64,000 nt of DNA. It comes from Athripsodes cinereus (taxonomy: Eukaryota > Arthropoda > Insecta > Trichoptera > Leptoceridae). Position 1 is the stretch's first letter. Each line of letters opens with the position of its first letter. Below are positions 8,365 through 62,025 of this stretch, in pieces. The notes beneath the pieces were generated by a model. That model was given only the letters and a program-made list of their open reading frames with translations. It was not told the DNA's origin and did no database searches. The stretch covers positions 17,063,447 to 17,127,446 of the forward strand of contig OX388319.1 in assembly GCA_947579605.1 (NCBI GenBank), given 5' to 3'. The translations under genes were made by a program, and so were the position numbers.

Positions 8365-8382
8365 AATCGCCACCCATTCCTT
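8365..8382 (-). other. Polypurine-tract-like sequence
   Basis: Minus strand reads AAGGAATGGGTGGCGATT directly before the downstream LTR (TGTTATG...), where plus-strand priming would occur. The purine run is imperfect. Confidence 0.45.
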
Positions 8383-9389: not shown

Positions 9390-10457
9390 CTATCTGGCTT
9401 GATTGAATTTCTTCCTCGACTTCAAGCATCGACAATCCATATCGATGAACAAATTACAAAAATAATCATCGATAGCAAAACATTCATAGTTGATTCGATT
9501 GATGGATGCATATTTTATATTTTCGAACAATATCCACGCTGTTCTACGGCGACGCGATATTTTTCTATTCACGAATCTAATAATAATTATAGCTGTACAT
9601 ATTAGCAAACGTATGCAGCTTTCCACGATCAATCCCGCGACGATCAGCATTGCCAACACTGATTTCAACACCCACGCGAAAGACTTAACCCATTCGTGAA
9701 TAGAGGGAGGTGTGAGTACCTCCCGTTCGGTGTCCTCATCTATCTCTTCCTCCGAGAGGGTAACCCCATCCTCTACGGGTACAATTTCCTCCCTAGCGTC
9801 CTGGCTAGGTACATACCGAACCTCATCGCGAACAGATGCTATTTCTGGAAGATTATCTAACACAACCTGATAACTCTTTGTGATCACCTCAGGTTCAGAT
9901 TGTCCCTCCGGAGTGTATTCTGGAAAGTCCAGGCGCCATACCAACTCTTGCAAATGTTCCAGATTAACTAACTCCCGACCATTAATCCTCGTCCTATACC
10001 AGGATGTCATTTGCTTCCATACGCTCATTGCTGGACCCTTACCTGCAAGTCCTTCATCTTTAAATAACACATGACCATACCCTTTTAAACGATTGTTTAT
10101 CCTGACTTTCCAGTCAACAAAATCACTCCCCAGTTCATCCCGACCTTGACACACTGTCAACAGGTCATTATAGATCGCATTTATCTGTCCTTCCACACCA
10201 AACCTTCGCAAAATTAATTCTTTGAAAACACCCCATCGACAATACCGAAACCCCAGAGACTTCCAGTACCGCTTTGCGTCGCCGCGCAAGCAATACACAG
10301 CCTCCCTTGGCAATTCATCGTCCCACTCAAGCTTCCAGCATTCCTCGCATTCTTTGAGGAACCGTTCGGGGCCTTCGTCAGTCCAGCCTCCGAACGAAAG
10401 CGAAAATTCGCGCTCATAGCATCTGATATCCGACACCTTATCCATCGATCGAATCAT
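9390..10457 (-). CDS. Gag-like protein with C-terminal transmembrane segment
   Basis: Intact ORF of 355 codons from the first in-frame ATG at 10457; an upstream GTG at 10469 extends the open frame by four codons but is not needed. Residues ~18-175 look like a Retrotrans_gag-type capsid: a GGWTDEG start, regularly spaced Trp/Leu, LRGDAKRYWKSL, and W-x-x-F followed by a hydrophobic and basic helix (KELILRRFG). Residues ~205-250 are very acidic (SEEEIDEDTERE). Residues ~263-298 form one or two hydrophobic spans (VLAMLIVAGLIV, LLICTAIIIIRFV), followed by a basic tail (SRRRRT). No CCHC zinc knuckle or protease is present. It probably builds a particle that packages the element RNA, and the membrane segment suggests membrane targeting. 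Whether that segment is a fused env remnant or a Gag innovation is unknown. Confidence 0.8.
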   Translation of the reverse strand: MIRSMDKVSDIRCYEREFSLSFGGWTDEGPERFLKECEECWKLEWDDELPREAVYCLRGDAKRYWKSLGFRYCRWGVFKELILRRFGVEGQINAIYNDLLTVCQGRDELGSDFVDWKVRINNRLKGYGHVLFKDEGLAGKGPAMSVWKQMTSWYRTRINGRELVNLEHLQELVWRLDFPEYTPEGQSEPEVITKSYQVVLDNLPEIASVRDEVRYVPSQDAREEIVPVEDGVTLSEEEIDEDTEREVLTPPSIHEWVKSFAWVLKSVLAMLIVAGLIVESCIRLLICTAIIIIRFVNRKISRRRRTAWILFENIKYASINRINYECFAIDDYFCNLFIDMDCRCLKSRKKFNQAR

Positions 10458-10656
10458 ACCGTAATACACAATAAATACATGTCAATAAAACAAAGCCAAA
10501 AGTCAAAACAATACACATTCGCCATTACAGATAACTTGTCAGTTCATTAAAAAAAAATATACACCCTCCTCCGATATCACAAAAAAAATTAATTACAAAA
10601 TCTCAGGGACGGATTCGTTGTAACGATTATGCACAGGAGTGCATTTTTTCGTTACG

Positions 10657-10675
10657 GACCCACGTTCGGAAGCCA
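10657..10675 (-). other. Primer-binding-site candidate
   Basis: Three bases inside the upstream LTR the minus strand begins TGGCTTCCGAACGTGGG. TGG complements the CCA end of a tRNA, and the CGTGGG part resembles lysine-type primers of insect Gypsy elements with mismatches. The priming tRNA is not established. Confidence 0.5.
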
Positions 10676-10678
10676 ATA

Positions 10679-12449
10679 TGATATGGGGGGGTGAGAGATG
10701 GTGATGAGAATGGTTTTGGTTGAGGATCAAATAAATAAAATATTATGCCAAAAATGCCAGCGGCTGAGACTCTACTGGGCTACTTACAGCACTCCAGGAG
10801 TTAAAACAATAAAATGGTCTCGATTAAATTATACAGTGAGGCTATATAAATTAAGAGACGACAAGTTATCTGTAATTAAATGGACAAATGTGTAAAAGAC
10901 AAATTTAGATTCAAATAAACATTTAATTAAAAATAAAAAAAAATCTTACCACTATTACAAACACACGTTTAAACAGCAACACAATACTACGACTTACTCA
11001 CTACCCCGTATTGTCTGTGCACACGTAATTATCCCCATTAAAAATAATTAACACACTTGATAACTAGTTCAATTAAGAAACGAAGCACTTTCAAAATAAA
11101 TTAATTTTCACTTTACGCTGACGAGCAAACGGATCCCACGTTGAGGGGGCCTCAAGCATGAAAATGCTTAAAGGCTAAACAAGTTGAAGAAGGCGCCCCT
11201 TGGCGCAGTGCTGGGAGGGCGAAGTCCCACGTCCGAGGCTCCGGGAGGCAATTACCAGCCTACACAGGTGCATAGTTGGCTCGTCATGACTTCAGGAGGA
11301 GAATATCTCGACTCAACTGAAGCCCAATGACTAGAGACACTTGTCTCTCTGAAGGTCAGCTGATGAGTGATGGCAGGAGCGATCCTTATACCAAGGACGC
11401 CTGTTTACGACCCACTGCTCGCTACAACTCACTGATAACGACTGTTCACCACTGATGGCTGATGGAGACTCTCTGATCTTTCAAGGACATCTCTCCGCTG
11501 TTCCTTGAGTGGTGTAGAGAGGGGTTGGTCATATACTCCTACTATGATGTGATTCATCGACGTGCAGCGCCGTGATTGGTTGATTGCAGTAGCAATACAC
11601 GCCTACTGCAAGTTCCATTGTATTGCGGGTACAACTGCACCCTTGTCTGCATTCCAAGAATTACGCGAACAATAAAATAAATATTTACAAATAAATTTTG
11701 AATTGTATATCGTCCAATGCACTGATTTTAATTAATAATTAATTAATTCACATATGTTATAGTGTCTCTTTCACTGATATTAATTTCGAAACAATATTTC
11801 TAGTGTCCATTATCACAGTTTATTATTATATAACGAGCGTCCATTCCGCAACACAAATAACACACATCTTATTCTATTACATAGCACAATACAACCCTTT
11901 AGGTAGATAATTAAATACTCAAACTACGTATGTTACAATAAAATTAAAATTCATACCTAAAGAGTCGTTTACATAATTCAAAACATATCATCGATATCAA
12001 CACTCAATAGATCGAAGCGTAGGTATAAAAAATCCAACCAAGCAGATACTAAATAATTACAATACGCAGACATTCTAGAATCTTCATAAAATAATTTAAA
12101 AAAAACAATTAACGAAGTTGATACATAATGAATGCGCCTTAAGTTGATACATGATACATAAGAATGCGCCTTAATCTTTTGTTGATATTATTCTCTTTAT
12201 TACCCCTGTTGCTATGTAGGTACAAATTTAAATAAACAATGATATTTTGTATATAGGTACGAAGATTAGTAAACAATACATTATTAATGCAGGTACCTTT
12301 TAAGTGCAGGGATATTTTTAATGTCGGGATTTTCAGAGTTCTCATGAACTGCATTGTTTATTTCGGTATTTCAGTACCACTTTCTAAATACCAATTATTA
12401 TTTTTAATGATAACTTTTCGGCACAATACCTACTATACCGGGCATAACA
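10679..12449 (-). repeat. 5' LTR of the gag-only retrotransposon
   Basis: Upstream LTR in the element's minus orientation, starting TGTTATGCCCGG and ending CCCCATATCA on that strand. It should contain the promoter. Confidence 0.92.
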
Positions 12450-12453
12450 AAGA

Positions 12454-14216: not shown

Positions 14217-16057
14217 GACTTCTACAAAACAAAAGTTAAAATGTACGATATTTGGTGAAAGTGCAGAGTTCGAGGAGAATATACTACTTACGTATGAGAA
14301 TGTGATGGAATTCTTTGAATGGGTTCGACAAGACTTAAAAATAAAGAACAACACAACAAAATAACCTACATTTTTGGAAAAGTACCAAAACAGTTGAAAC
14401 AAAAATTGAAGAATTACGTATGAATAAAATCTTCTATTTCAATTGTTACACACAAACGAGTTTTACAGTTACTTAAAAAATATCACTCAAAATGTTTTGA
14501 TTTGATTTGTTTGATTTTGTTTGAAATTTGAAAAAGTCTTTGAAGAAACTAAAGAAAATTCAGAGTACAAAGTGGAAAGCTTTTTGACATAGCTGCATGT
14601 AAATGTAAAGAATTTGTAAACTGTACTTGTTTGAGAGAAAATAAAGTGCCAAAAGAGGAACAAATATTTTTAGAAGACCAACGCACTAACAGACAAATGG
14701 TTTTAGGAAGAACGGATCTTATCTAGAGTAAAAAATTGCAGAAAAGAAGATTACGTGCTCTTAAACAAGAAATCAGGCATAATTCAAATACAAGAATTAA
14801 AGAAATTTCCTTTTCTTTATATAGGCTAAATAGATCTGAAGTAAGTTCTAATGTTGACCTTCCTTCTTGTTCGTCGGCCGCAGATGGTCTTGACACCGCG
14901 AACAAAGTGGATCAAAAGCCTATAAATCTCACGGATGCCAGTCTTCATAGTTTGACGATTGTACATATGCGATAGATATCGATAGCGATAGAGTATCAGA
15001 CCGAGCTGCGGCGGTTATCGTGTCATAAATGTTCTATATTCTGCTTCTGATGCTGACTCTGAGGCGCAGTCGACTAACGTCGTGGGCAGGATGAAACTCA
15101 GAAGAATAAGACAGAAAGTTTTCGAGCAAATTTTAACAGAAGAAAGAGTAACAGAAATTCCTGCCTTATATTTTGATGGAAGGAAAATCCAGACGGCTAA
15201 AACTGTTTTAAAAAGATCGAAGAGATTTAAAGTGATTGTATAAGAGGAACATGTTTCGATTATTAAAGAACCAGGTTCTGTTTATGTTGGGTATGTGTTT
15301 CCAACATCGGACAGTGCGAGAAATATTGAAAGAGCTATCCACGGCTTTTTGACGACTGAAAATATATCACCAGAGAGTATACTGACTGTTGGATGTAATG
15401 GAACAACCACAAATACAGGGAATGTGGGAGGCGTGATTGTTTTTTTGTAAAATAGACTATCTCAACCATTGCATTGGATAATTTGTCTCTTATACGCCAA
15501 TGAGTTGCTATTGACGCTTTGTTTTCCTATTTGGATAGCCCTATAGCAGGATCTAAATCATTTGCAGGTCAAATTGGTATAGCATTAAAGATGGTTCAAA
15601 ACATTTATGGAAGCTCATTAACAGCACTAGTTATTTGTCGAACGAATTGTTAGCGATTGTGGACCCTGTTTTATTTCGGAACAGTTACTTTGCTCATCTA
15701 GAAAACTTGTTGTTGAGTACGATAACAGATGCGCGTAAGCACATTAGAGAACTAGCTGCCAGACGCATTTTAAAAGCTCGTCAAGTGAAAAAAAAAATTG
15801 TTTCGTGCATGTTTGAGGTGCCAAAAGTGGACTTAAATGCAAGTTCTTACATAGACTTGATAAACTGGCAACAAAATAAATACGAAACCTCAATACTGAT
15901 GAATATTTCCGATAAGCAGTTACAACATCTTATTGAAAATGGAGGAGAATCGGTTTTGGAGTTAATGAGACTGCCTTACCACACCCAGGCTGTGAAAAGA
16001 TCAGTAAAAGATGTGATAGAAGCAGCTCTACGTGTATGCGATAAGACAAGAAGATAG
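14217..16057 (+). pseudogene. Transposase-like pseudogene of the 13678-16462 element
   Basis: Conserved-looking blocks appear in order on the plus strand in changing frames, separated by stops and frameshifts. They are MTSTKQKLKC at 14217, DIAACKCKEFVNCTCLREN near 14600 followed by FLEDQRTNRQM, IPALYFDGRK near 15160, EEHVSIIKEPGSVYVGYVFP near 15245, TVGCNGTTTNTG near 15385, and an open 140-codon segment at 15635-16057 with VPKVDLNASSYIDLINWQ and LPYHTQAVKRSVKDV. From memory of related arthropod proteins, YFDGR and the site here reading GCNGT hold catalytic aspartates; if so the second is mutated to Asn. The copy cannot make a working enzyme. Confidence 0.7.
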
Positions 16058-25680: not shown

Positions 25681-26364
25681 TCTCAGCCGGAAATTCAATA
25701 TTTTTTTATTACAAAATTTATAAGGTTATTTTTTTAATGGAATACTTCTGAGTTTGTGCGTGCAATAAACAACGAAATCTTAAATCAATGTTTTGTATTG
25801 AATCGCTCCCTTTTAAGAAGGCATGCAAAGCCGGCAGTTGAAACAAGTTTATCCATATATTTTCTTTTTCCTGTTATCCTTCTCTAACTCATTCATTCTC
25901 TATACTCTCTTTCATAATATCGTCTATACAATAAATGGCGCTTACGTGACACTTTTCATTATGGAATTCATAAAAACAAGAAATATAATAAGAATTTTTG
26001 AGTGCCTTTTGTGTTAGACTTTGTACAAAGGAAATACATGTAACGACCCAACACGATCCCTCTTTTATAATATAAAAGTTATATTTTTATATCCATATTA
26101 CAAACACTAATATTATCTAACACTTTTTTTTATTTAATCGTGGATTTGGAGACGAAGAACGAGCAAATTGAAAGCTTTTTCAATAACTGAATATCTTGTT
26201 AAGAAAAGTTAAAACAATATCAGAATATGAAAAAAATACGTATTTTCTACTATTTTTTTCACACCGTGGCAGAATTGCCATCCACACTTCTCAGAATAAT
26301 ACAACCAGATAAGTCTCCATATGATTAGTCATGGTCACACAAAAACTTAACAGTCTAAAAAATT
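25681..26364. other. No gene recognised
   Basis: AT-rich. The 25823-26017 frame is hydrophobic by composition only. Confidence 0.45.
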
Positions 26365-26525
26365 GAACTTGAATTTCTATGTTTGTTACTTGAATTTAAA
26401 ATACGATTTCAGTGTACTTACACCATTGACAGTGCAGTCTTGAAAAGTTCGTCAATGGTGTAAGTGCATTGAAATTGCGATAACGTATTTTTAATTCATG
26501 TAATAAATAAACATAGAAATTCAAG
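26365..26525. repeat. Foldback hairpin, ~65-75-bp arms
   Basis: AACTTGAATTTCTATGTTTG at the left returns inverted at the right (CATAGAAATTCAAGTT). The inner ends ACACCATTGAC and GTCAATGGTGT flank a ~20-bp loop. Arms have mismatches and small indels. Probably a small MITE. Confidence 0.85.
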
Positions 26526-26874
26526 TTAATTTTTTTAAATGTCCAGAAATTGTTACATAGTTAATGCCTCTAAAATAAGTGAAATTCTTAACAGTCTAAT
26601 ATACAGGATATCATAGGATTTGGCTCAAAACTTTATCATTTATATTTTTTATAATTATTACTATGAATACTACACAAACTTTGATTTTTTAATCCAAAAC
26701 TAGTTCAAAGATGAATTATGTATATATATTAAAATATATTTTTATATTTGCAGTGACAATTCTGTAATTTTTATTTTAGATATTCCTTTACTGATAACAT
26801 TATTTCTAAAAAAAATGTTTAAATTCATCCTCAGTTTGCCAATTTTATATAAATTAATTAAAGTGTTAGTATTT

Positions 26875-31344: not shown

Positions 31345-31615
31345 AACATGCAGATGACAAAACCAGTCACCATCTCGATTGGAGAACCATGTTTACACAA
31401 TGTTACATTGTGCAAATTTTAATCGGAAGAAGTGAGAAAGGTGTCCCAACGCTTACCAATTTGGGCAGTGAAAGTGATTACTTAAGCCAGCCTGGAGCCA
31501 ATTCTTAAGCATTGGGACGCCTTTCTCACTTCGTCCAATTTAATTTTGCACAGTGCCTACTACATTGTGTAAACATGGTGCTTCAATCGAGGTGTCTGAT
31601 TGGTTTTGGTAACAA
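31345..31615. repeat. Foldback element with ~100-bp imperfect arms
   Basis: The left arm (CAAAACCAGTCACCATCTCG, ATGTTTACACAATG, GTCCCAACGCTTA) reappears inverted at 31504-31605 (TAAGCATTGGGACGCC, CATTGTGTAAACATGG, GATTGGTTTTG) around a ~60-bp spacer. It is MITE-like. No target duplication was identified. Confidence 0.85.
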
Positions 31616-34075: not shown

Positions 34076-34490
34076 ACTAACATAATAAAAAGCTTAAAGT
34101 TTAATACTGTGCTCCGAAGATGACACACTGAGAAAAATACTAACGAAATTTCACAACGAATCATTGGTACGTAATATCAGATTAGGACCAGAGATCGTAC
34201 AAACGATTCATTAGTACGAATCTATAATATTAACTCTTCGCAAACAAGTTGTTGGTAAATTTACCAATGATTTGTTTGCGAAGAGTTAATATTATAGATT
34301 TATACCAATGAATCGTTTGTACGATCTCTGGTCCTAATCTGATAGTACCGTACCAATGATTCGTTTTGAGTATTTTTCTCAGTGCAATGTGTTGATGGAA
34401 GCGTTGTCATACTAACATAATAAAAAGCTTATAATTTAATACTGTGCTCCGAAGATGACAATGTGTTGATGAAAGCATTGTCATAAACAT
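34072..34490. repeat. Short tandem duplication, one unit interrupted by a MITE
   Basis: A ~75-bp unit (AACATAATAAAAAGCTTA, ACTGTGCTCCGAAGATGACA, ATGTGTTGATG-AAGC-TTGTCAT) occurs twice. The first copy carries the MITE at 34126-34384; the second (34414-34484) is uninterrupted and is a natural empty site. Confidence 0.9.
34126..34384. mobile_element. 259-bp palindromic CACTG MITE
   Basis: Begins CACTGAGAAAAATAC and ends GTATTTTTCTCAGTG. Almost the whole element folds back on itself around TTGGTAAATTTACCAA. The empty copy at 34414-34484 shows that the target duplication is the 2-bp CA. Its first ~80 bp nearly match the left end of the large element at 36184 (ACAACGAATCATTGGTACG, ATTAGGACCAGAG), so it is a non-autonomous derivative or relative of it. 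Confidence 0.93.
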
Positions 34491-36181: not shown

Positions 36182-36183
36182 TA

Positions 36184-36194
36184 CACTGAGAAAA
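36184..36194. repeat. Left terminal inverted repeat
   Basis: CACTGAGAAAA, exact inverse of the right end. Flanking TA on its left is the putative target duplication. Confidence 0.9.
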
Positions 36195-36210
36195 ATATCA
36201 ACGAAATTTC

Positions 36211-36380
36211 ACAACGAATCATTGGTACGTACTATCAAATTAGGACCAGAGTTCGTACAAACGATTCATTGGTATAAATCTATTGACTTTTGCGCAATCA
36301 ATTCGTTGGTACATTTACCAACAACTTGTTCACAGTGACGTCATCAATGTGAAGTATGCTGCGGAACAATTCGTTGGTAA
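36211..36380 (+). promoter_or_regulatory. Subterminal repeats of the CACTA-like element
   Basis: Four related copies: ACAACGAATCATTGGTACG (36211), CAAACGATTCATTGGTAT (36258), GCAATCAATTCGTTGGTAC (36294) and GAACAATTCGTTGGTAA (36364). An inverted TTTACCAACAACTTGTT lies at 36314. The consensus is close to AACRAWTCRTTGGTA. In plant En/Spm such subterminal repeats bind an element-encoded protein; the same role here is inference. The MITE keeps these motifs. Confidence 0.8.
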
Positions 36381-36399
36381 GAATCTATTGAATTTTCAT

Positions 36400-37530
36400 A
36401 CTTACCTTGGTATACATAACCTCACTTTTAGCTGTCAAAGATCCAATAATATCAATCGCGTTTAGTTGTAAAATGTGATCTACTTTTCTAATAACGGTAT
36501 AATTATTTGAAACATACCAACAAAAAAAATATTATTAGAATAATTATTCACATTTTACAAATAAACATTGTGATTATTATAAGTAGAAAAAGTAGGAATG
36601 AAATTCAAACAAAAATTTTCTTTTAAGTAGTTACTTGCGTAAAATAATAATTTATTAAAAATTACAAAGGAAAAAATATAAAAATATGGACAGTTAATAA
36701 AGACACATATTGAAACATACATAAAAATATACCATTTAGGAAACCAAATTATACAGCCATAGTTATACCTGTAGTGCAGTATATTTTTTTTTATATTCTT
36801 GTTCCAACACAATAAGCATTAATAACAATAATAATATTGTGCTGTCTCACTCCATATCATTGAAATGATAGTGGTCTCTTTCCTGAGATAATGCTGAGAT
36901 ATAGTACTTTTATCACACCTGCCGAGAGTAAAATCATAAAAAAGCCATATTATAGCTAGCTGTTGTCTTATTAAGAAAACAAACACCCAGGGTTGTTGAT
37001 CGAATAAAAATAAAATTATCAAAATTTTTGAAATATTATATACAAGCTTTTGTAACCCGGCATTGCTCGGGTTTAAATAAACAGAAACCGTGCAAATACA
37101 TGGGTTAAAATTGGTATTTTTAGTTTGTAGTACCTACATAAATCTTCAAGTGATTTGCCATGAAAAGTAAAGAAAAATATTAGGCGAAAATAAATAGGTT
37201 CTTATGGCTAGTACCGAGGTACTTTTGTATTAATTTATACAAAAAATAGATTAACATTGTTTATGGATTTTTTACATAATACTATTCTAATTCTACAGTA
37301 TGGATTTCTATGGTCTCATAATATCCTCCATTATGAAAATAGCTAAAAATGTCAAAAATATGCAATTTTTATTCTCATAATTCAGGATTTTTTGTCATTA
37401 GCAATCACAATGTTTCATTATGTAAACAGTCCCTAATTATTTAGTTTCAGTATTGTTTTATTTATTGTTACATCCATTTTGAAATTAATTCAATACAATG
37501 AGAAATGTTTAACTATAAATATTGGATTTT
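36400..37530. other. Non-coding 3' region of the CACTA-like element, part 1
   Basis: AT-rich; open frames at 36555-36812 and 36819-37022 have low-complexity composition and no domain. Confidence 0.5.
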
Positions 37531-37532
37531 CA

Positions 37533-37569
37533 TACATTCGCTTGGCAATTTTGTCAAGCGAATGTATGG
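37533..37569. repeat. Short hairpin
   Basis: CATACATTCGCTTG and its inverse CAAGCGAATGTATG are separated by 9 bases, giving a 14-bp perfect stem. Confidence 0.8.
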
Positions 37570-37739
37570 GAATCTCATTGAAATTGTAATATCTTTATCA
37601 ATACATAAGATATTTAAAATGTTTTTAGCCTTAAACCTGCCCAGGAGATGAGACCTCGTATAGAGTGTATTATTTTACTTCTGTCTTTCCTTATTTCAGA
37701 GTCCATTGAGGACATACGCACATACGAACCGACTCAAAT

Positions 37740-38300
37740 ATTTATGTGTGGATTACAAAATAAAGAATTACGTTTTAAAAATAATTTTATATTGTATACT
37801 TTCGACATTGAAAAATACAAATAAATTAGTTAGAAGAATTATAATATTGTTATAAAATTATTTAAAATTAACAATAAATAACAATAGGCAGTTACCCAAA
37901 CTAAAAATTGACATAATTATCATTTGGGTGTTCGAAATTAATATTAAAAAAATTAAATATGCTCACTATAAAAAATATTAAAATTTAACAATTGCGTACT
38001 TTTTAAAATAATAATATAGTCATAACGAAAATAATATAATTTAAATAAATAACAATAAGCAGTTACCCAAACTAATAATTAACATAAATAATATTTGGAT
38101 ATAATAAAGGAACATTGAACAAATATAAACATGTTCATTATAAAATATTTGAAACATTGAAACATAAAAACAAATTTGTTAATAGAACTATAATGTCATG
38201 GCATTGCTTAAAATTAACAATCAATAACCGCAGACAGTTATTCAAACTCGTAATAAACAAATAATTGGAAATTATAAAGGAATATTGAATAATTATAAAC
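37740..38300. repeat. Degenerate ~175-bp tandem repeat, about 3 units
   Basis: The phrase TAACAATAxxCAGTTACCCAAACTAA recurs near 37880, 38050 and 38225, embedded in similar flanking order (AATATTG, ATTATAAACATG, AAAATTAACAAT). Confidence 0.65.
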
Positions 38301-38664
38301 ATTCACCTCATATAAACATGTTCGATTCGACGCATTACCATTTTTTTATTTGAATTACCGATCTCGTATATCTTCGACTACAGCATACAAATTCTAATCA
38401 TATCACTATTCAGCACAGTCCAATAAGGACAATTACATATAATCTCAATTTATTGTCAGTAAATAATTGACACAGTATTATCATTTAAACAGTTTAAGGA
38501 AAATAAATCCAATGATCTCTAGTTATTTATGTAACTATAAATTTAGCAAAATATGGACAGACAGACAAGAATCACATAATTACTATTTAGCAAATAAGCA
38601 ATAACATATTACAATCAATTGTTAATTAATAATTAAGGCAGTATAATCAAGTTCTATATTAATA

Positions 38665-39165
38665 AAACCTCACGCCGTGTCCCAGGTGGGGTAGGCAGAG
38701 AGAACGGAATGTCATGTTGCTCCATCCTTGTTTACTTCGTTCGCTTCCTCTACGATCATCTAGTTTCTCATACATGCACACCGATTCCCCTTACACGCGA
38801 CCATCCCTGATAATTTGATCCCCACGTTGTTAAGCCATGTAGTTCTTGGACGCTCACGCTCCTCACACCGTTTCATTCAGACAAGTAAATCCTCTTTGTC
38901 ATTATTTCCTTTCTATTAGTTCCACATGACCAAACCCTCTCAATTTATTTACACGCATTCTATCAACAACACACTTCTCACATCCACTCATTCTCCTGAT
39001 ATCCTCATTCTTCACTGTATCACGCAATATTTTATCTACCATTCTTCTCAGTGATCGCATCTCCACAGCATTTATACCACTGTCATCCTTCTTCAACCAC
39101 GTCCAATCCCTAAGAAATCCATATAACTTCGAATGTAGCAAAACATGGAAAATTATCAAAATTGG
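38665..39165 (-). pseudogene. RTE-like LINE 3' fragment inserted in the CACTA-like element
   Basis: The minus strand encodes a disrupted C-terminus: MRSLRRMVDKILRDTVKNED, IRRMSGCEKCVVDRMRVNKL and RGFGHVE, then frameshifts and the terminal GGGACACGGCGTGAGG. It is close to the 5440-5882 copy but more broken. It postdates or hitchhiked with the transposon. Confidence 0.8.
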
Positions 39166-39594
39166 ATGAGAATCACATTGACTATATTATAATAACGACA
39201 TATTACAAAATAATATTTATACCATTTTATATCAAATACAACTTCTAAACCTATTATCAATACTCATCAAACTAATAAGTCAAATTCAATTAATATAAAA
39301 TCAGCACTAGTTAAGAAGTTTACATAACTATGAATGTAGCAAAATATGTAAAAGTAAGACAAGAATCACATTATGATTTTATAAATTATTAAAGATAACA
39401 TTTTATACAAAATATTATACTTATATAGCAACAACAATAAGGCAACACCATATTATAATTACAATTCACTGGCTATATAAAAGTTCAAAATTATCCATTT
39501 CTTTTATACAATTTACCTGTGAATGTAGGTAAAAATGGAAAACAATACAATGTTATAGAGTTAAGCTTAAAAAGTGATACAATTTTTTTAAAAA

Positions 39595-42108
39595 CTAGTC
39601 TAAGATAGAACGAACAGTAACATATAATTTTGAATTGGGCATAATAGTTAAATTATTAGGTAGGCAACCTAAAAGGTTTTGATGCAAATAAATTTGTTTA
39701 GAATCAGTCTTCCTAGTAACTTCATACACATAAAAATGTTCGTTGAATAAAATGGTATTGAAATTCTGGCAAAGAAAGTAAATATCATTTTCCTGTGTGA
39801 TGAAAATCTTTTCAATTTCTGAAAATATTGGAAAATAATCATCTGCTTCATCAATGTCAACAGTAACAATAGAGCAAATTTTGAACATAATACCTTCAAC
39901 TTTGACCCAAGGAACTTGATAAACAAATTCATGATTATTGAAAATATTGAATTGTTGTTTTAAAACATGAAAAGAGATATTGCTTACTTTTACCTTCTTT
40001 CCAAATACAATTTTTTGAAAAGGAGCATTTTTCAAAAATACATCATTCATAATAAGCTGATTTTTTATGGCAATTGTCTTACAAATATTTACTCTGCTAG
40101 CCGATGAATTTGCAATCATTTTTGATATCTTATGTCGAGCTTCAAATCGGAATGTAGAAATATTTATTAGGGGGCCAAACTTTATTAACATTTGTGGATA
40201 ATGTATCATAAAATGAAATTTTGGTTTAAGTGTCTGGGACGTCAATTTCAAATACTGGGAGTTTAACTCGGCAATATCAAATTTCAATGCTTCTACTGTG
40301 TCGGTGAAAACTCTTCTACTTAACAATCTATCTGTTATTTTACGCAGCAAAATATATAATGCCCAAATGGGATGGTTTTCAGGAACGTAGTGCCCACAAA
40401 TTAATGAAAAATATTTGACAAAAGTCAGCATTTCTGAAGCTGAAGTCTTGAACTTTATTGAATCTTTACTTTCAAAAATGATAGAGCCTGTAGGTTTTGT
40501 ATTTGTGTCTGGGCCATAATCGAATGTGTGAATCTTAGTTTTAAGAAGATCTAATGATATCAATTTCAAGTCATTGATTAATTTGGATAATATAAAATGC
40601 ATTACATATTGACAGACACCTTGGCACCAATCATGTAAAATATCTGTGGGAACATTATCAAACAACTTGAAACCATTTAAGTTAAGCCAACAACTTTTTT
40701 CCTTAACACCAGTTTTAGAAACATCATTTTCATCAATTTGATTCAAATAAGAATTAAAATTACGTAAAAGAGAGCTGTCTTCAAAAGTCATTTTGTGAAT
40801 CTGACTTTTATGAGCATTACAAATTCTACAAGGGTAATTAGATGAAAATGATTCCACAAAACCAAGAGTTCCCGACAAACCAAGATTATCACCGACTAAC
40901 GAAACCACGTGAAACTTAATAATACCTTTAAATACGTCTGTGTCTACATATACTCCATTTGATTTGAGATAATTCAAATGATCAATTATTTTTTGAAAAA
41001 TTATTTTGTTACCAAACTGAACTCTGTCAGATGAATGAAAAAGTGCCAGCAAAAATACATTTTTTAACTGTGAGGTGTAAAACATAGGAAAACCAGGCAA
41101 AGATGCATAAACACCGCCTATTTTGTGAATTCCTGCATGTGATCCTAAAGGATTTCCTATCTCAAAGTCATCATAATAAATAAGTATTGGAATATGTAAT
41201 ACATTAGATTCGTGTGGAATTTCATTCATCATTTTTGTCCATACAGAACCTTGGATAATATTTTCTATGCATTCACTATCAATGTTATTATTTAACTGCT
41301 CATTGTAATCCAAATAGTCCTTTAGAACTCCTGGTAAGCATAAAAATTTTCCTAAAACCTCTTTAATAGACACCACTTGTATTGTAGCCTGTGTGGGGCG
41401 CAATGTTCTACGAAAGCGAGTACGTCTATGTATCATTTTTTGACCGATAGGAAATTCCACAGGTGGAAAATATGTTCCCATTTTGGAAAAATATTGGAAT
41501 CGTAAATGTTCTGAGGCCAGATTGGTAATAGAACTATATAATGGAGATTTGGTTTCAATAAAATAATCACACACAATTTTATAAATTTCCGGAATCAAAA
41601 TATTTTTAAGGCTATCTAGAATTGATTTTTCGATATTGTCAGACAACCGGAAACGAAACTCATTGCATACTACTTGAACAACATTTCTCGGTATTAATGG
41701 GTGTGAATATAATGATGATAAAAAGATAGCAAACTGTTGTTGTAGGTTAATGTCAGAAGAAGATGTTGTAGAAACTTGATTAATGTTGGCAACAATATTT
41801 TCATTGTGAATATCCACTTGTTGTACGTTAATATCAGATGTAGAAACTTGATCAATATTGAAAACAATATTTTCATGGTGAACAGACACTTCGTTGTCAA
41901 TATTCGTAGACCTATTTGCATTACTATTTTGAAGATATCCATGGCATCGAATTAAATGTTTTTTAAACGATGATGGAGATAAATAGCTACGAAAACAACC
42001 CTGTTCTCCACAAAAGAAATTGTTATCTATTAAACAAAAAACTCTCACATGATCAATGAGTTTGGAAATTAAAATAAACTTTCTACTACATTTGAAACAG
42101 GTATACAT
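39595..42108 (-). CDS. CACTA/EnSpm-like transposase with N-terminal zinc fingers, 837 aa
   Basis: Intact single-exon ORF starting at ATG 42108. Residues 4-25 form a Cys-Cys-His-Cys finger (C4, C7, H20, C25) and 33-56 a C2H2 finger (C33, C38, H51, H56), likely for DNA binding. A core from ~305 to 660 carries Tnp2-like blocks: IYYDDFEIGNPLGSHAG (310-326), a GDNLG motif (406-410), a CRIC pair (427-430), DILHDWCQGV (489-498), HFMIHYPQ (632-639) and FRFEARHK (653-660). D313/D314, D407 or D493, and E656 are candidates for the DDE residues, but the assignment is inference. The protein would cut and join the CACTG ends. A possible splice acceptor (ATACATTCAG) lies just before the ATG, so it may come from an alternatively spliced transcript of the upstream gene, as in plant CACTA elements. 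Confidence 0.85.
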   Translation of the reverse strand: MYTCFKCSRKFILISKLIDHVRVFCLIDNNFFCGEQGCFRSYLSPSSFKKHLIRCHGYLQNSNANRSTNIDNEVSVHHENIVFNIDQVSTSDINVQQVDIHNENIVANINQVSTTSSSDINLQQQFAIFLSSLYSHPLIPRNVVQVVCNEFRFRLSDNIEKSILDSLKNILIPEIYKIVCDYFIETKSPLYSSITNLASEHLRFQYFSKMGTYFPPVEFPIGQKMIHRRTRFRRTLRPTQATIQVVSIKEVLGKFLCLPGVLKDYLDYNEQLNNNIDSECIENIIQGSVWTKMMNEIPHESNVLHIPILIYYDDFEIGNPLGSHAGIHKIGGVYASLPGFPMFYTSQLKNVFLLALFHSSDRVQFGNKIIFQKIIDHLNYLKSNGVYVDTDVFKGIIKFHVVSLVGDNLGLSGTLGFVESFSSNYPCRICNAHKSQIHKMTFEDSSLLRNFNSYLNQIDENDVSKTGVKEKSCWLNLNGFKLFDNVPTDILHDWCQGVCQYVMHFILSKLINDLKLISLDLLKTKIHTFDYGPDTNTKPTGSIIFESKDSIKFKTSASEMLTFVKYFSLICGHYVPENHPIWALYILLRKITDRLLSRRVFTDTVEALKFDIAELNSQYLKLTSQTLKPKFHFMIHYPQMLIKFGPLINISTFRFEARHKISKMIANSSASRVNICKTIAIKNQLIMNDVFLKNAPFQKIVFGKKVKVSNISFHVLKQQFNIFNNHEFVYQVPWVKVEGIMFKICSIVTVDIDEADDYFPIFSEIEKIFITQENDIYFLCQNFNTILFNEHFYVYEVTRKTDSKQIYLHQNLLGCLPNNLTIMPNSKLYVTVRSILD

Positions 42109-42289
42109 TCTGAATGTATAAAAATCAATAATGTATAAAAAAAATCAATAATGTATAAAAAATCAAATCAAGATTCAGTTAAAATCAAATCTAATCAAAA
42201 AAATTATGCTTTATAATAGCCAATCAAACAAAGATGAATGAAAATCAGTCTAAAATATAAAACAAATTACAAACTAATAAACAAATAAT

Positions 42290-45200
42290 TCACTCTACAC
42301 AGTCAGATATTCCCAGATCATTAAAAAATGATAGCATGCCTGGAGTTATTCTATCAGACTGTGTATTGATTTTATATAGACCAATTTGAATTGTCAGCCA
42401 GACGTTGCGACACTCTAGAGGATACTCTGCATCTGTTGCGAATATGACTTGAAAAGTACTATCCACGGCCTCTACAAGTGTCGCAAATTTATAAACGGTG
42501 CGATCCAAAACAAAAAAACTAACGTTGTTTTCAACAGTGAATATAGAGGGTTGAAAACGCCTGCCTGTAGCTGACAAAACTGCATGCCTTTGGAGAATTA
42601 CTGCTGGCAGGTCATCTTCACTGGCTAGTTGGTATGCAAAGGAAGATCTTACTTCACCTGTAGACGGACGCCAACCTCTTCTCCTGTCTTCTTTGTTTGC
42701 ACGTGGTAATGGTGATAAATAGCATAAGAGGATTAACGCAGCATTTGACCTTGTCATCACATCTACAGGACCTAAAAGAAATTATAATGATATTGTCAAA
42801 TTAATATCATATAAAACATATTGCTGTTCCATGCAAAAAACATTAAATCTCCCGTTCATAGAAATTAATTATAGATGATTAAATAAGAAACTGATAAAAT
42901 CATAATTTTATGAAGTACATGTGTTACATTAAAATATTTATAAAATACTGTATCGGGAAAAGAATATATATGAAAAAATGACCTATTTCTCTGAAAAATA
43001 ATCTTTAAATACCTTCAATTGTATTTAAAATTTCCTGAATTTGGGATCTCACACATTTGTCTGCAATTTTGGATACCTTAGACTTTGCAAGACTAATAAT
43101 TTTGTCTTGCAAATTATATAATGATGTGTGGAATATATCTTCTTTTCCATCATATGCTTTTTTGAAATCTTCACGTAACTAAAATAAAAAGCATTATTGA
43201 TTCACATAAATATCATATTAAGTATTTTTAATTATAATGATTTTAAAACACTGTATAATTTCCAAATTAAATTTATTCACCTCAAACGTTTTCGCCAAGG
43301 CTTCTACTTGGCATCATCAGGAGGACTTGGCATCTTGGCATCATCAGGAGGACATGATGCCAAGTAGAACCCTTGGCGAAAACGTTTGAGGTGAATAAAT
43401 TTAATTTGGAAATTATACAGTGTTTTAAAATCATTTTTTTTTTATTTTATTTTTTTTATTTTATTTCATAGAGACACTCACAGAAAACTGACAACACAAT
43501 ACATAAATTACAAACATACAATAAAATCTGGCCAGTTCCCCAATTAAGAGCGTCTACAGCATGCACAATCAGAGAATTCAATTAAATTAAATTAAATTAA
43601 AATTAAAGCGTAACTCAATATCTGCGGTGACAAGGCAAAGGGGCACAAGCCAGCCCCGCAGCACCGAGCCACCCCCCCCACAGAAATGCAGGCATACATC
43701 ACACCCCACAAAGCAATGGGATCAAGGGCAGCCCATGGTACTAGGCAACCCCGGATGCCAACACCTGCGAAGCACGACATACACCCACACCTCCGCGGAG
43801 GGAACAACTCAACACCGCAAAACCAACCCACGCCCCCTCACCCCGCCACCACAGATACAATGCCACGATAATGATAATCTCTATGTAGAGATAATCCTGC
43901 TAATGCACATCATCGCATTTTTCTTAGGTTAACTGCTCTGTTGATTTGTTATATGAACGATGATGTGCAAGAAGAACAAAAGAAATGAACAACAAAATAT
44001 AATTATAATGAATTTCCAAAGTGTTAACACAAAAACATTTGATTTATTAAGTATTTTTTTTAATTCAAGGTTTTACACTGTGTACCCAGTACTCTGAAGT
44101 TCCCTACTACATGAAATTATCAAGTACAAATGGCTTTTTTGAGGTTTTAAAAGCATTTTTAAAACTTACCAATTGAAATCCTTCTTGAGTCTTTAAAATG
44201 GGGTATTTTTGAAAATAATCATGAATGGTTAAATTTTTTTTTATTATTCCTCTTTCAGAAAATGTCTCCTTCCATATGTTGAGAACATTATGGAAGGGAC
44301 TTATGTGCGTTTCTAAATAATTAAGTTTGCTGTTTGTTGAGTCATCAACTAGAACAAAAGAATTGAAAAACAAAAAATATAGATATACATTTAGATAAAT
44401 TACGTCATAAAAGTAAGACATAATATTCCAAGCATTTAGTTTCCTGTAAATTAAAAACTAATTGCTTACATTCAAATATTTCCTCAGGCTCTTGCCTCCT
44501 GGTTGGAACTAGCTTGCTATTTCCCCCCTTTTTTCTAGGGCTTATTATCTTCAAGTTTCGAAGCGCTTGTCTTTTTTTCAGGTATTCCGAATACAAAACA
44601 CCTCCTAAATTTCTCTTCCTTCCCAAGAAGTCCGCTTTTTTATAACCCGTGAAAAATGATTCCGGTGAGCATTTGGGAAAAATTTGGAAAAGTTGGTTTG
44701 AAAAATAAGTAAAAGTTTTGCTGAGGATTTGCTCTTTAGGATTTTTGTCCAAAACATTATTCATAATAATCCTAGCAACGTCTCTTCTTAAGCCCCCATC
44801 TATATAGCCATTGTTGGCAGCAGCCAAATCTAAAATTTTTCTCCCAGATAGGGTGCTTTTCAATACTGATTCACACTATAAAATGGATGAAATATGATTA
44901 ATTTTACAGTTCTTCAATAGAAGCATACTTTATATGACAAATAATTAAAATTATTTATGCATATGAAATAATTTATATGAAAATATAAAACTTAGTTCAT
45001 AACAATTATGTGGAATTTAGTACAATTTTCGCATGAGCTGGGATTACCCTAAGAGATATAAAGGCTAATAGATGTATATTGTGCCTTTTCTCACTACATA
45101 AGCAACTATTAACTTACTATGAGAAAAGATTACAAAGTATTAAATTGAAAAAATAATAATAAATAAAAATATTGCTGTTCAGTTTGTTTTTGTTATACAA

Positions 45201-46919
45201 TGCTTTTGTTGAGTTGAGATGAACAGATTGGATAATTGTTTCCCAACCTTCTTTATGCCATGCCCCACCGTAATCTTTTCAAAAGTCATATGCCCCATCA
45301 GCCTCTTTTTTAATTAAACAGTTGGTAAATTTTCAATAAAAAGTGGAAGCGCAGAGTCTCACCTCTGAGGCTTGATGCCCCACTTTGGGAGACACTGAAC
45401 TAGATGGTTGAATGATCTAGAATGAATCATTAGATTGAAATGGATGTAATCAGGATAGATATGTGGAAGATCAAATGGGAGGCGTAATCCCAACAATGGA
45501 TACAAAACCGTTTAAGTTGGCGATGATGACAATCATCTTGATAAATTATTTTATGCAACAGTTTTATATGCCAATTAAAAATTTAACAAAAAATACTTAC
45601 AAAATCAGAGCTTGTTTGAGAACTTGTTGTTAATGGTTCTATTCTGAAGTGAGTGGATGTGGATTGTCCCAATGTTGATTCCTCTAATAAACTCTCACCT
45701 CTGAGGCGTGATGCCCCACCTTGGGAGACACTGAACTAGATAGTTGAATGATATAGAATGAATCATTAGATGTGATTGTATGTGAATCATGTGTATGATG
45801 TAATGATGTGAATCAATGAAGTGGATGTAATCAGGATAGATATGTGGAAGATCAAAAGGGAGCCCTAATCCCAACAATGGATACAAAACCGTTTATGTTG
45901 GCGATGACGACAATCATCTTAATAAATTATTTTATGCAACAGTTTTATATGCCAATTAAAAATTAAACAAAAAATACTTACAAAATCAGAGCTTGTTTGA
46001 GAACTTGTTGTTAATGGTTCTACTCTGAAGTGAGTGGATGTGGATTGTCCCAATGTTGATTCCTCTAATAAACACTCTAATGTCACTTTTACGGGTGTTG
46101 ATTGGCCTGATGTTGATGGCTGAAATGTCGATACAGGAGTCACCTTTGTAGGTGTCGATTGCCCTGTTTTGGACGGTCGAAAGGAGGAGTTTAGTTCTGA
46201 TGTATGTGTTAAGTCAAACTCCTAAAAGGACAAATTAAAATGACTTTTTCTTTCGTTTTGATATTAACTTAGTATCAAGACACTGTATTAAATTTAAAAA
46301 ATAAATAAATTGAAGGGGTTATAACACACCGTATTAAGGTTGGTACCACCGTCTAACTTCCACTGCAACCAAAATTTTCTGAAACGTGCCCTTTCTCCCA
46401 CAAGTGGAAAGAGCTCTGTTATATCTTGCTCATTCAATATCAATAAGGTATCAGTGTCAATTTTATTTTCTGTGGGAAAACATAAGGAATTTATTAAGTT
46501 TAGGTCAACGCATCAAAACTTCAATAATTTTGAATTATTTTTACGTAGTATTATATCTGGGAATAACAATGCAGTATAATATTGTGGATTTATTAAGCAC
46601 ACAATTATTTATTTACTTTTTTCGTACTCGTTTGACGTCACAAGTACTTAAATTTTTACGTTACACTGATTTCTAGATTAGGTTAGTTAGGTAGTCTGGT
46701 GTTTTTTGTGCAAAAGCATATTTATTGGCAATCATTTCATTAACATAACATTTCTTGAGTGAAACAATATAATTACGAGAATATAAGTAGAAATAAATAA
46801 AAATTGCACAATAAATTAAAACAATATGACAAACAAATAAATTATGGTAGGTACTTACTACTGAATACTTCTACTTTATCCTCAAATCCCCAGGACTTTA
46901 ACAACTCAAAAAGAGACAT
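42290..46919 (-). CDS. Seven-exon companion gene of the CACTA-like element, SAM-like domain, ~557 aa
   Basis: Reconstructed from GT-AG sites that keep one frame throughout: 46919-46859, 46469-46330, 46221-45982, 44875-44470, 44348-44170, 43178-43013 and 42771-42290, with the stop at 42290-42292. Donors include GTAAGT (four times), GTAAGC, GTGTGT and GTATTT; acceptors include CCCACAG, CTTTTAG and GTTCTAG. Residues 1-67 resemble a sterile alpha motif: MSLFELLKSWGFEDKVEVF, then IDTDTLLILNEQDITELFPL and VGERARF. Exon 3 is a Ser/Thr/Gln-rich linker with STxGQSTP repeats. Exon 4 (LSGRKILDLAAANNGYIDGG) and exon 7 (QPSIFTVENNVSFFVLDRT) look like conserved domains that I cannot name. It may act like TnpA as a partner or regulator binding the ends. 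The total coding length, 1674 nt, is a multiple of three. Confidence 0.72.
43238..43433. repeat. Long hairpin, ~79-bp arms
   Basis: Left arm TGATTTTAAAACACTGTATA...CTACTTGGCATCA (43238-43316) and its inverse at 43355-43433. The loop contains TCATCAGGAGGA twice. Arms are nearly identical. Confidence 0.9.
43620..43862. other. GC-rich island inside the LINE 3' UTR copy
   Basis: Rich in C runs on the plus strand (CACCCCACAAAGC, CCCCTCACCCCGCC), flanked by sequence continuous in the 61595-62020 copy, which lacks it. Open frames here on both strands reflect composition, not a gene. Confidence 0.7.
45355..46074. repeat. ~350-370-bp tandem duplication covering part of exon 3
   Basis: Unit 1 (45355-45704) and unit 2 (45705-46074) share TCTCACCTCTGAGGC-TGATG, GGAGACACTGAACTAGAT and the exon 3 end with its GTAAGT donor. 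Unit 2 has a ~50-bp ATGTGAATCATG-type expansion. The duplicated exon end at 45602-45700 could be an alternative exon or a spliced-out relic. Confidence 0.88.
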
Positions 46920-47434
46920 ATCTTTGTTCACAAGCACGACACACTAACTCCACGGCCAGGAGAACAATAAATTCACACTTTCTCTTAAATAACTTAGATT
47001 AGAAATCGTTGCAACGCAATATTTTTTTTACGACCCTTTCATTGTTTGTATTGTATACATACACCGAAAAATGACAGAAAAAACGGAAACGAAGTTTACG
47101 AAGTAACGGACGTAAGTAAACGGACGTGCCAACGCAATTTTTACTTTATTGTCTTTTATGATAAGATCACTTTTTAAATTAATAGAGAAATACTCTTTAA
47201 ACCCACTAGCGCCATATGGATGTTTAGTTCACTAAAATGTGGGTAAGAGCCAAATAATTTCTAAAGGTATCCTTAAATGTATTAGTACGCAATACTATTA
47301 ACTTAAGTTGTTAGTACACGCCGACAAATTTACTGTTAAGGCAATATTGAATTATTGTTTGCGTCTTATTATATCAATAGTAAGGCGGGCAAAATAATTT
47401 ATTGTGATAGATCAATTGAATTTGGAGATGTACC

Positions 47435-47445
47435 TTTTCTCAGTG
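47435..47445. repeat. Right terminal inverted repeat
   Basis: TTTTCTCAGTG, inverse of the left end, followed by TA. It lies about 520 bp upstream of the companion gene's ATG, so the promoter should fall in 46920-47445. Confidence 0.9.
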
Positions 47446-47447
47446 TA

Positions 47448-54879: not shown

Positions 54880-55195
54880 TATTTATTTATTTATTTTATT
54901 CTTCTTGCACATCATCATTCACATAACAAAATCAACAAATAAGTTTACATATTTGATATCAATAAAACACTGTTTTATTTTTCACTATTGATTTATTAAT
55001 ACTAGTGAAAAGTAAAACAGTGTTTTATTGATATCAAATATGTTTAAAATGTCTTTTCGCGATGTGAACACACAAACTCTAGATCATTTAAATAAGTTTA
55101 CATAAGAAAAAATGTGATGATTATGCATTGGCGAGATTTTCACTATTTAGTGATTTCTTCCATCTAACCACGACTAGAATTTGTGTTCACGGGTA
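54880..55195 (-). repeat. LINE-type 3' end with a nested palindromic insertion
   Basis: Minus-strand copy of the 31050 family: TTTATTTATTTATTTTATTC, TTCTTGCACATCATC at the start, GTGATGATTATGCA and GATTTCTTCCATCTAACCAC at the end. It is split by ~140 bp (about 54948-55087). AAATAAGTTTACATA occurs on both sides, consistent with a ~15-bp target duplication. Confidence 0.7.
54951..55039. repeat. Hairpin with ~37-bp arms
   Basis: ATTTGATATCAATAAAACAC...TTTCACTA and its inverse TAGTGAAAAGTAAAACAG...GATATCAAAT. It shares AAAACACTGT with the hairpin at 43238-43433. Confidence 0.9.
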
Positions 55196-55395
55196 TAACA
55201 AAACACCTTCTCGTTTGTTTTATTTGTCATAAAATTGGTTTGTTATAAAATTATTCATAGCTATTGACAACTACAAAAAACGTATCTTAAATCATTAAAA
55301 TTATGTAAAAAAACACGTTTTCTATAAAAAAATTCCATTGAAAAGAATCATTTAGATATAATATTATGAAGTTGTCATCTAGCGAGAAGATTATA

Positions 55396-55976
55396 AATAA
55401 TACTACAATTCAAATTGAATACTCTGATTTGATAAAAACCGTCTATCCGTAGACCGACCGAAGTGTCCTTTCTATGTCAATTAAATATATTAAGACACAC
55501 ACATGGATACCCCACCTCGTCGCTGAATTAAAAATGTGAAATATCTTATAAATGTTGTTTTACGAATACATAACTCTTACTACAATCTTAATAAATAATA
55601 CTACAATTCAAATTGAATACTCAGATTTGATAAAAACCGTCTATCCGTAGACCGACCGAAGTGTCCTTTCTATGTCAATTAAATATATTAAGACACACAC
55701 ATGGATAGCCCACCTCGTCGCTGAATTAAAAATGTGAAATATCTTATAAATGTTGTTTTACGAATACATAACTCTTACTACAATCTTAATAAATAATACT
55801 ACAATTCAAATTGAATACTCAGATTTGATAAAAACCGTCTATCCGTAGACCGACCGAAGTGTCCTTTCTATGTCAATTAAATATATTAAGACACACACAT
55901 GGATAGCCCACCTCGTCGCTGAATTAAAAATGTGAAATATCTTATAAATGTTGTTTTACGAATACATAACTCTTAC
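55396..55976. repeat. 198-bp tandem array, about 2.9 units
   Basis: TACTACAATTCAAATTGAAT starts at 55401, 55599 and 55797, an exact 198-bp period with only a few differences (CTCTGATTT versus CTCAGATTT; GGATACCCC versus GGATAGCCC). Each unit includes a SINE family A piece (GGATAGCCCACCTCGTCGCT, GAATTAAAAATGTGAAAT), so a SINE fragment was captured and amplified. Confidence 0.95.
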
Positions 55977-56769: not shown

Positions 56770-57201
56770 ATATATATTTATTTAAGTAGAAATAAAATGG
56801 AGTTTTGAGGTATGGTAAAGTTTAATTTATATCAGTTTAAAATAAAACAGCTACAAGTTCTTGAAGAAAGAAACGACAAGTGGTAGGATATATCTTTATT
56901 TAATTTTGAAATTAAAATATTTAATTAATTTATTAAATTATTGGACTACGATAAACATTCGATAACTTAAAATACCCTCAACCTTAAATCTTCAGATAAT
57001 TTTTCTAAACAAAATTTGAAAGTTCTAAAAATGACAAAGAAACAATTTGGCTGATCCCTGTTTTTAAAAACAATATATTTGGTATTATTATTCAGGAAAA
57101 AATTACATAATATTTTATTACATTGTTTGTCTTCATATTCGAAAACACTTCATAAAAACGAGTACCTAAGAAATTATAATGTAAAGTTATAGGGTACTTA
57201 C
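56770..57201. other. Intron sequence adjoining the LDLa exon (inferred)
   Basis: Begins with GTAAGT at the exon edge; AT-rich with no further exon recognised. Confidence 0.5.
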
Positions 57202-57427
57202 GTGAACATAATCTCGGCTCGTCACTCTTGTCACCGCAGTTGTCCTCCCCGTCACAGAACTTATCCAACGCAATACACTGTCCAGTGTCGCAATAAAACT
57301 CACTATGTCGACACGGCGGACCGACGCCGACGTCAGAACTCTGCGAGAGTACCATGCGAAGAACAAAAAGAAGAACCATCCAATTGTTCCACACGGATAA
57401 CTTATTTCTACTTTTCAAAGAAGTCAT
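57202..57427 (-). CDS. First coding exon of a secreted or membrane protein with an LDLa domain
   Basis: ATG at 57427. Residues ~16-29 are a hydrophobic signal-like core (WMVLLFVLRMVLSQ). Residues 39-74 form an LDL-receptor class A module with six cysteines (39, 46, 51, 58, 64, 74) and the acidic calcium cage FCDGEDNCGDKSDE. The exon ends at 57202 in phase 1 before a GTAAGT donor; reading on into the intron gives unrelated residues. LDLa modules bind ligands extracellularly. This is the only convincing host coding sequence in the window. Following exons should lie at lower coordinates, but none is recognisable down to base 1, so the first intron may be very long or the rest lies outside. The gene identity is unknown. 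Confidence 0.82.
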
Positions 57428-57718
57428 TTTAATAAATTAATTTAATTTCTTAATCTATTTAAACCTCACAAAATGGTGAATGAATTTTATTTATAAATAT
57501 CACCAAATCATTTTTCAATTTATTTTTATTCACTTTGTCACCAATATGTAGCAATGATTTTGAGAATTTTTATATGAAGTATATTTGAACATTAGTTTAT
57601 TTACGCGAAATCTGCTTTATTTTATGTTTTGTGTATTTGTTTTATTTATGTAAATTAGGTAATTATAATTTTGTGTATTTAGAATTAGTATTTATTGAAT
57701 AAAGGTATTTTGGAAATT

Positions 57719-61284: not shown

Positions 61285-62025
61285 TCTTGTCAGTTTGCAT
61301 GACAGACGTATAATTGCCGATCTTTCTCTTCTCTACAAGGTTGTAAATCACAGCGTAGCGACTGCATCACTTGGCGATCTTGACTTCTACACTCCAAATC
61401 CACGTCTCCGTAGTACCAACACATTCCGAGTAAGAGTTCACAACAACAATATCGGCCACTTTAGCCCAGTATCGCGAATGTGCAGATTTTATAACATCTT
61501 GTGTGAGAAAGGGGTGGAGGGGGTTGATATATTTAACGACTCGTTGGCTACATTTGGGAGGGAGGTGAAGTGTAATGTAAAATTGTTGACATAGTTTGTT
61601 CCGAAGGTTTCATTTTTCGTCCTTTGCCTGTGGCTTGTTGTCGTACTAGGTGTGCGATTCGTCAAGAGCCCGATTCGGGTTAATTAAACTAAAATAGTTG
61701 TGTTGTTGTTCTATGATTATTGTTACATTATATTTTGTTGTTCGTTTCTTTTGTTCTTCTTGCACATCATCGTTCATATAACAAATCAACAGAGCAGTTT
61801 ACCTAAGAAAAAAGCGATGATGTGCATTAGCAGGATTATCTCTACATAGAGATTATCATTATCGTGGCATTATGAATTACGCTTTAATTGAATTCTCTGA
61901 TTGTTCATGCTGTAGACGCTCTTAATTGGGGAACTAGCCAGATCTTGTTGTATGTTTGTAATTTATGTATTGTGTTGTCAGTTTTCTGTGAGTGTCTCTA
62001 TAAGATAAAATAAAATAAAATAAAA
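61285..62025 (+). pseudogene. 5'-truncated Jockey-like LINE: ORF2 C-terminus, 3' UTR and tail
   Basis: The frame 61295-61594 encodes a post-RT C-terminus: RRIIADLSLLYKVVNHSV, FYTPNPRLRSTNTF, SRMCRFYNILCEKGVEGVDI and FNDSLATF. Patterns such as RR..DL..LYK, R.t..f and DIF..sL..F are typical of the last ~100 residues of Jockey- and I-type non-LTR proteins. The stop is followed by a ~430-bp 3' UTR with the GCACATCATCG...CGATGATGTGC hairpin and a tail of AAAAT units. The copy begins just after TACTAC-type repeats. RT and endonuclease are missing. A second copy lies reversed in the transposon intron (43450-43985). Confidence 0.82.

Follow-up and report, generated by a model that had tools for sequence, protein, structure and literature searches.

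The 64-kb window analyzed here, a stretch of 64,000 nucleotides from the trichopteran Athripsodes cinereus (contig OX388319.1, positions 17,063,447 to 17,127,446 of the forward strand), carries at 36184-47445 an 11,262-bp element that is very probably a real, structurally complete two-gene CMC (CACTA/EnSpm) cut-and-paste DNA transposon. Its ends are exact 11-bp inverted repeats, CACTGAGAAAA at the left (36184-36194, plus strand) and its inverse at the right (47435-47445, minus strand; TTTTCTCAGTG as read on the plus strand). The left border reads TTA followed by CACTGAGAAAA at 36184 and the right border reads TTTTCTCAGTG, ending at 47445, followed by TAA, leaving on both flanks a TA that we presume to be the target-site duplication (36182-36183 and 47446-47447). 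Both genes are encoded on the minus strand, with a companion gene first, then a 181-bp gap and then the transposase gene, while the long left portion of the element consists of repeat remains and the left end, with an older repeat fragment at 38660-39048, between the transposase stop and the left end, that is 79% identical to 5468-5861. The original prediction, made from this sequence before the present analysis, had described matching ends with identical TA flanks, an unbroken 837-codon transposase and a companion gene whose seven exons join in frame, and each of these features was recovered. With at most one mismatch, CACTGAGAAAA occurs at six sites in the window against a shuffle mean of 1.8, six being reached in 1 of 100 shuffles; four of the six sites are exact and are arranged as two inverted pairs, one bounding the large element and the other bounding a 259-bp miniature inverted-repeat transposable element (MITE). 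The same prediction turned on the existence of other elements with these ends, and the MITE is one; the prediction itself names neither the MITE nor the tandem copying within exon 3 nor the repeats inside intron 5.

The MITE (34126-34384) is a foldback flanked by CA and lies 1.8 kb from the large element. Its arms resemble the large element's left end (84.9% identity over 152 columns and 82.4% over 153), and in shuffle tests of one arm, its score against the left end was reached by none of 500 shuffles and that against the right end, past the 11-bp repeat, by 231 of 500. A tandem repeat of the MITE's surroundings at 34411-34490 (plus strand) lacks the MITE and forms a paralogous empty site, which carries CA once and is 92.7% identical to the joined flanks over 82 columns. 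The comparison shows that an element bounded by such ends inserted with a 2-bp duplication, and because that duplication is CA, a TA target is not obligatory. Elements bearing these ends have moved, although at 82-85% identity the MITE is evidence of older family activity only.

The two elements also share a 15-bp motif, AACRAWTCRTTGGTA. Subterminal copies span 36213-36379 (plus strand) at the large element's left end, with exact direct copies at 36213, 36260 and 36365, a one-mismatch copy at 36297 and a two-mismatch copy on the minus strand at 36316-36330. Counting in the window with this motif, which was derived from these same ends, gave seven exact copies, four in the MITE and three in the large element's left end, and nine with at most one mismatch, every one in the MITE or the left end; with up to three mismatches there were 51 copies against 25.3 expected, a number reached in 0 of 100 shuffles. 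The TTGGTA core of the motif is absent from the final 400 bp at the right end. In plant CACTA elements, subterminal repeats are bound by TnpA.

The transposase gene is a single intron-less open reading frame of 837 codons with no internal stop (39598-42108, minus strand; stop codon at 39595-39597), and its product appears to comprise two C2H2-type fingers (residues 1-56), a RAG1-like DDE core (about 122-698) and a BAH-like C-terminus (about 699-830). A protein search with the transposase returned 485 matches at E <= 0.01, of which 120 were listed. The named organisms among these 120 are all insects (ant, firefly, psyllids, aphids, moths, butterflies, hoverfly, damselfly). The nearest of the listed matches share 44-45% identity with the window protein across 97-100% of its length, and an ant protein reaches 53% across 71%. 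When 39 of these 120 were aligned with the window copy (40 sequences in total), D313, D407, C427, C430, H632, H636 and E656 proved identical in all 40, and in 39 of 39 when the butterfly protein P0106 is set aside. These residues form a DDE triad with C(2)C (C427-C430) and H(3)H (H632-H636) motifs between the second D and the E, at a D-D spacing of 94 and a D-E spacing of 249. Because P0106 starts with companion sequence, it was excluded from the counts of invariant columns and finger residues: the window copy keeps all 41 columns that are invariant across the 38 other relatives, and among the residues of the two fingers, C4, C7, H20, C33, C38, H51 and H56 are each present in 37 to 39 of 39, with position 25 split between H (22) and C (15). 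The best solved matches to the predicted fold of the core are RAG1 and then HzTransib. From this conservation and fold, we infer that the transposase would act by DDE catalysis. Searches with the transposase alignment found no relative in viral contigs or in bacterial and archaeal genomes, and the left-end pattern had 0 matches in viral contigs.

These features together carry the CMC assignment, and the original description of the element as CACTA-like holds: both elements have CAC..GTG termini, the 2-bp duplication lies within the 2-3 bp range, and the DDE triad with C(2)C and H(3)H, invariant in the alignment, sits in a RAG1/Transib-type predicted fold. PMC6004678 and PMC12730594 give CMC termini as 5'-CAC..GTG-3', and PMC12730594 places C(2)C and H(3-4)H between the second D and the E of the CMC DDE triad.

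The companion gene runs from 46919 to 42290 on the minus strand in seven exons, with six GT-AG introns and 557 aa in frame. Exon 1 (46859-46919) holds the start of a SAM domain and exon 2 (46330-46469) its remainder, exon 3 (45982-46221) encodes a poorly conserved linker and exon 4 (44470-44875) a conserved middle region, and exons 5 (44170-44348), 6 (43013-43178) and 7 (42290-42771, with the stop) complete the frame. In BLASTP against annotated insect proteins, P0121, P0123 and P0124 cover residues 5-552 of 557 at 25-28% identity and E values of 6e-53 to 5e-43, the alignments containing 35 to 62 gap positions, and since these cross-species alignments extend over the exon junctions, they support the seven-exon model. 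With a Brenthis fragment added to the companion alignment, 16 homologs were found among 7993 candidates, and the family carries its SAM domain at the N-terminus. A fold search with a companion relative gave no clear match beyond its SAM domain (none at Foldseek E <= 0.001), so the middle and C-terminal parts have no assigned fold, which need not mean a new one; the companion may bear some likeness to vertebrate SAMD3-like proteins.

Two insect proteins link the companion to the transposase. P0106 (Brenthis ino, 1136 aa) contains a companion part (27% identity over 477 columns, E 5e-32) and then a transposase part in one protein, and P0132, from the aphid Macrosiphum euphorbiae, matches SAM_1 at 4-53 with 26.7 bits, which exceeds the cut-off, and Transposase_21 at 507-627 with 24.9 bits, which does not. 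P0106 is the only transposase match longer than 866 aa among the 120 listed, and P0132 is the only companion match longer than 587 aa among the 16; the remaining matches are uninformative about neighbouring genes. Most simply, both fusions are gene predictions that merge two neighbours, in which case gene order and strand are the same as in the window. To judge by these sequences, the companion-transposase pair is conserved in two other insects.

Several results weigh against reading the element as a complete CMC transposon. No similarity between the right and left ends was found past the 11-bp repeat (an equally high score arose in 64 of 500 shuffles), and no empty site of the large element was found within the window. 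The window transposase matches no Pfam transposase model; a single-sequence search with the companion found no homolog at E <= 0.01 among 7992 candidates scored, and the companion's own SAM match is 15.1 bits against a cut-off of 23, beside chance-level matches to EMG1 and Ig_CycH. Finally, the nested repeats in intron 5 (43236-44003) and the partial duplication of exon 3 show that this copy is not brand new. The intron-5 repeats comprise a foldback at 43236-43435, with 82-nt arms that are 99% complementary, and a repeat (43445-43586 and 43859-44003) that also occurs at 61727-62025 with 95-98% identity. The duplication at 45357-46077 is a tandem copying of the end of exon 3 (copies 45357-45696 and 45693-46077, 84.7% identical), of which the exon model uses just one copy.

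These last observations bear on whether the copy can still move. The original prediction held that it may be autonomous and active; autonomy is reasonable, but current activity is not upheld, given the 82-85% identity of the MITE and the nested repeats in intron 5. The intact frames and ends argue for a copy that may be young or constrained, while the nested repeats and the exon-3 duplication argue that some time has elapsed. It is a serious possibility, to which we give a little less than even weight, that the frames are intact but mobility has been lost, the copy being a relic that is perhaps silenced or whose right end has lost its subterminal repeats. The lack of the 15-bp repeats at the right end, the nested repeats and duplicated exon piece just described and the divergence of the MITE from the left end all fit such a relic, but no lesion is found in 837 codons or seven exons, all 41 invariant columns are kept, and ends and flanks are intact. 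A relic would bear on activity alone and can be compatible with the CMC classification.

Nearly as credible, though we lean against it, is that companion and transposase are produced from one primary transcript by alternative splicing, which would be compatible with a two-gene transposon; in plant En/Spm, the proteins arise by alternative splicing of one primary transcript. The gap between the companion stop and the transposase ATG (42109-42289, minus strand) is only 181 bp and contains neither AATAAA nor ATTAAA, an acceptor-like CAG lies one base ahead of the transposase ATG, and predictors fused the two genes in two species. The fusions may, however, be prediction errors, and 0.72 acceptor-like sites as good as this one are expected in any 181 bp, so this candidate acceptor is no better than chance.

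That the element belongs to a lineage beside CACTA, either ESTA-like or another branch of CMCT (the clade of Plavaka, Transib and RAG1), is in our judgment unlikely. Such a placement would accord with the fold ranking of RAG1 and then HzTransib, with the TA flanks of the large element, which recall ESTA, and with the lack of a Transposase_21 match in the window protein; in addition, 2 of the 40 aligned members weakly match the Plavaka model (best E 0.014). However, no CACTA transposase is present among the fold matches listed, so the top rank of RAG1 cannot separate CMCT branches, the CA duplication of the MITE shows that TA is not obligatory, the ends are CAC..GTG, and 14 of the 40 aligned members match Transposase_21 (tnp2) at E <= 1, the best at 1.1e-6 and 28.5 bits against a cut-off of 28.6. 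The profile comparison put forward with the original prediction therefore points to no unrelated superfamily, both models matched by relatives belonging to the CMCT clade, although the window copy itself matches neither. ESTA elements of fungi are described in PMC12730594 as EnSpm-like with TA duplications, and the present element is like them in its TA flanks and CMCT motifs but unlike them in the CA duplication of its MITE and in having insect rather than fungal relatives; neither of its two proteins matches a dioxygenase model in Pfam, in contrast with ESTA.

The resemblance to Transib, RAG1 and ProtoRAG lies in the RAG1-like predicted core fold and the C2/H2 motifs between the second D and the E, with D-D and D-E spacings similar to those in RAG1. 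Transib has a 5-bp duplication, however, compared with 2 bp here, and its termini differ; the present transposase also has extra C2H2-type fingers and a BAH-like tail, and its companion is a SAM protein. The least tenable reading, that the companion is a neighbouring host gene outside the transposon, draws on several companion homologs being annotated as single uncharacterized genes and on SAM domains being mainly host signalling and chromatin modules, but is very improbable given that the companion lies inside the inverted repeats and that the same two proteins are fused in the same order in one butterfly and one aphid prediction.

As a CMC transposon, the element is like plant CACTA/EnSpm elements (En/Spm, with TnpA and TnpD) in its CAC..GTG ends, subterminal repeats, second protein, 2-3 bp duplication and DDE transposase with C(2)C and H motifs. 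It differs from them in that its transposase is one intron-less frame with N-terminal C2H2-type fingers, and we know of no SAM domain in the second protein of plant CACTA elements; by analogy, the companion may be a counterpart of TnpA in function at most. Among animal relatives of CACTA, TRC elements (SmTRC1 and others; PMC1636069) share the 2-bp duplication and have a Transposase_21 domain, a model matched here by relatives of the window transposase at E <= 1, but their ends begin with CCC rather than CACTG, and the excerpted text of that paper mentions no SAM companion for them. The wasp and polydnavirus MITEs CMC-NA_1 and CMC-NA_2, compared in PMC6004678 with the transposons ENS1_Cis and CfTEC, also have CAC..GTG ends and a 2-bp duplication, and CMC-NA_1 likewise has a paralogous empty site. 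That study found no autonomous partner for these MITEs, whereas the MITE described here has a large element with identical ends 1.8 kb away.

The BAH-like fold of the transposase tail (residues 699-830; 39619-40014, minus strand) comes from predicted structure only. A BAH sequence profile gave no match in 15 C-terminal pieces at E <= 10, and a C-terminal profile run against solved chains gave one weak match, to Clr2 (E 1.3). With a fold match but no sequence match, we call the tail BAH-like and do not count it as a BAH member; it may have some likeness to plant DUF4216.

We propose that the transposase would work on two kinds of site, the inverted repeats of 11 bp and the subterminal repeats of 15 bp, cutting the element out and reinserting it with a 2-bp duplication, most likely by cut-and-paste through a RAG1-like dimer on paired ends. 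The SAM companion would be a self-associating assembly or end-binding partner, functionally the counterpart of plant TnpA; its domain points to an oligomerising role. Reading of histone marks by the BAH-like tail is speculation. It is doubtful, but conceivable, that these parts together define a widespread insect CACTA lineage in which a RAG1-like transposase with a histone-mark-reading BAH-like tail works with a SAM companion that polymerises on the subterminal repeats. RAG2 carries a PHD domain, and such a lineage, if real, would be a parallel invention to RAG1 and PHD-bearing RAG2, with insertion steered to chromatin state.

In the literature examined, animal CACTA elements have been known mainly by their transposase, ends or short non-autonomous copies. 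What sets this element apart from a routine family member is its conserved SAM companion, its BAH-like tail and, next to it, a minimal element that has an empty site; it also provides a full anatomy and, in the 259-bp MITE, a natural minimal substrate whose insertion is proven. The MITE with its empty site, the 15-bp repeats common to both elements and the BAH-like tail fold, this last in structure only, are new. None of the open-access matches listed joins a SAM companion or BAH domain to CACTA/EnSpm, and the five open-access papers found to name both "CACTA" and "SAM domain" deal, to judge by their titles, with unrelated matters; this search does not extend to Repbase Reports or to most of the subscription literature, where a prior description is possible. 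With a companion family paired to the transposase in butterfly and aphid, the system enables a two-component excision assay and a test of a chromatin-reading tail on a CACTA transposase. It also suggests that some insect gene predictions named "C2H2-type domain-containing" or "SAM domain-containing" are transposon genes.

Elsewhere in the window, direct repeats at 6590-8366 and 10675-12451 (1777 bp, 99.8% identical, 4085 bp start to start) look like those of a very young, short long terminal repeat element, with a gag-like frame at 9390-10481 on the minus strand that matches Retrotrans_gag at 14.1 bits, below the cut-off. A frame at 15557-16057 weakly matches the Syndetin C-terminus (E 1.7e-5, 25.0 bits against a 38.4-bit cut-off), and a minus-strand frame at 57095-57436 encodes a low-density lipoprotein receptor class A domain (E 7.4e-10) and is probably part of a host gene. 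A tandem repeat with a 198-bp period and copies about 99% identical occupies 55393-55976, and foldbacks at 31358-31608, 26356-26537 and 54947-55043, which are 74-92% self-complementary, possibly represent other MITE families.
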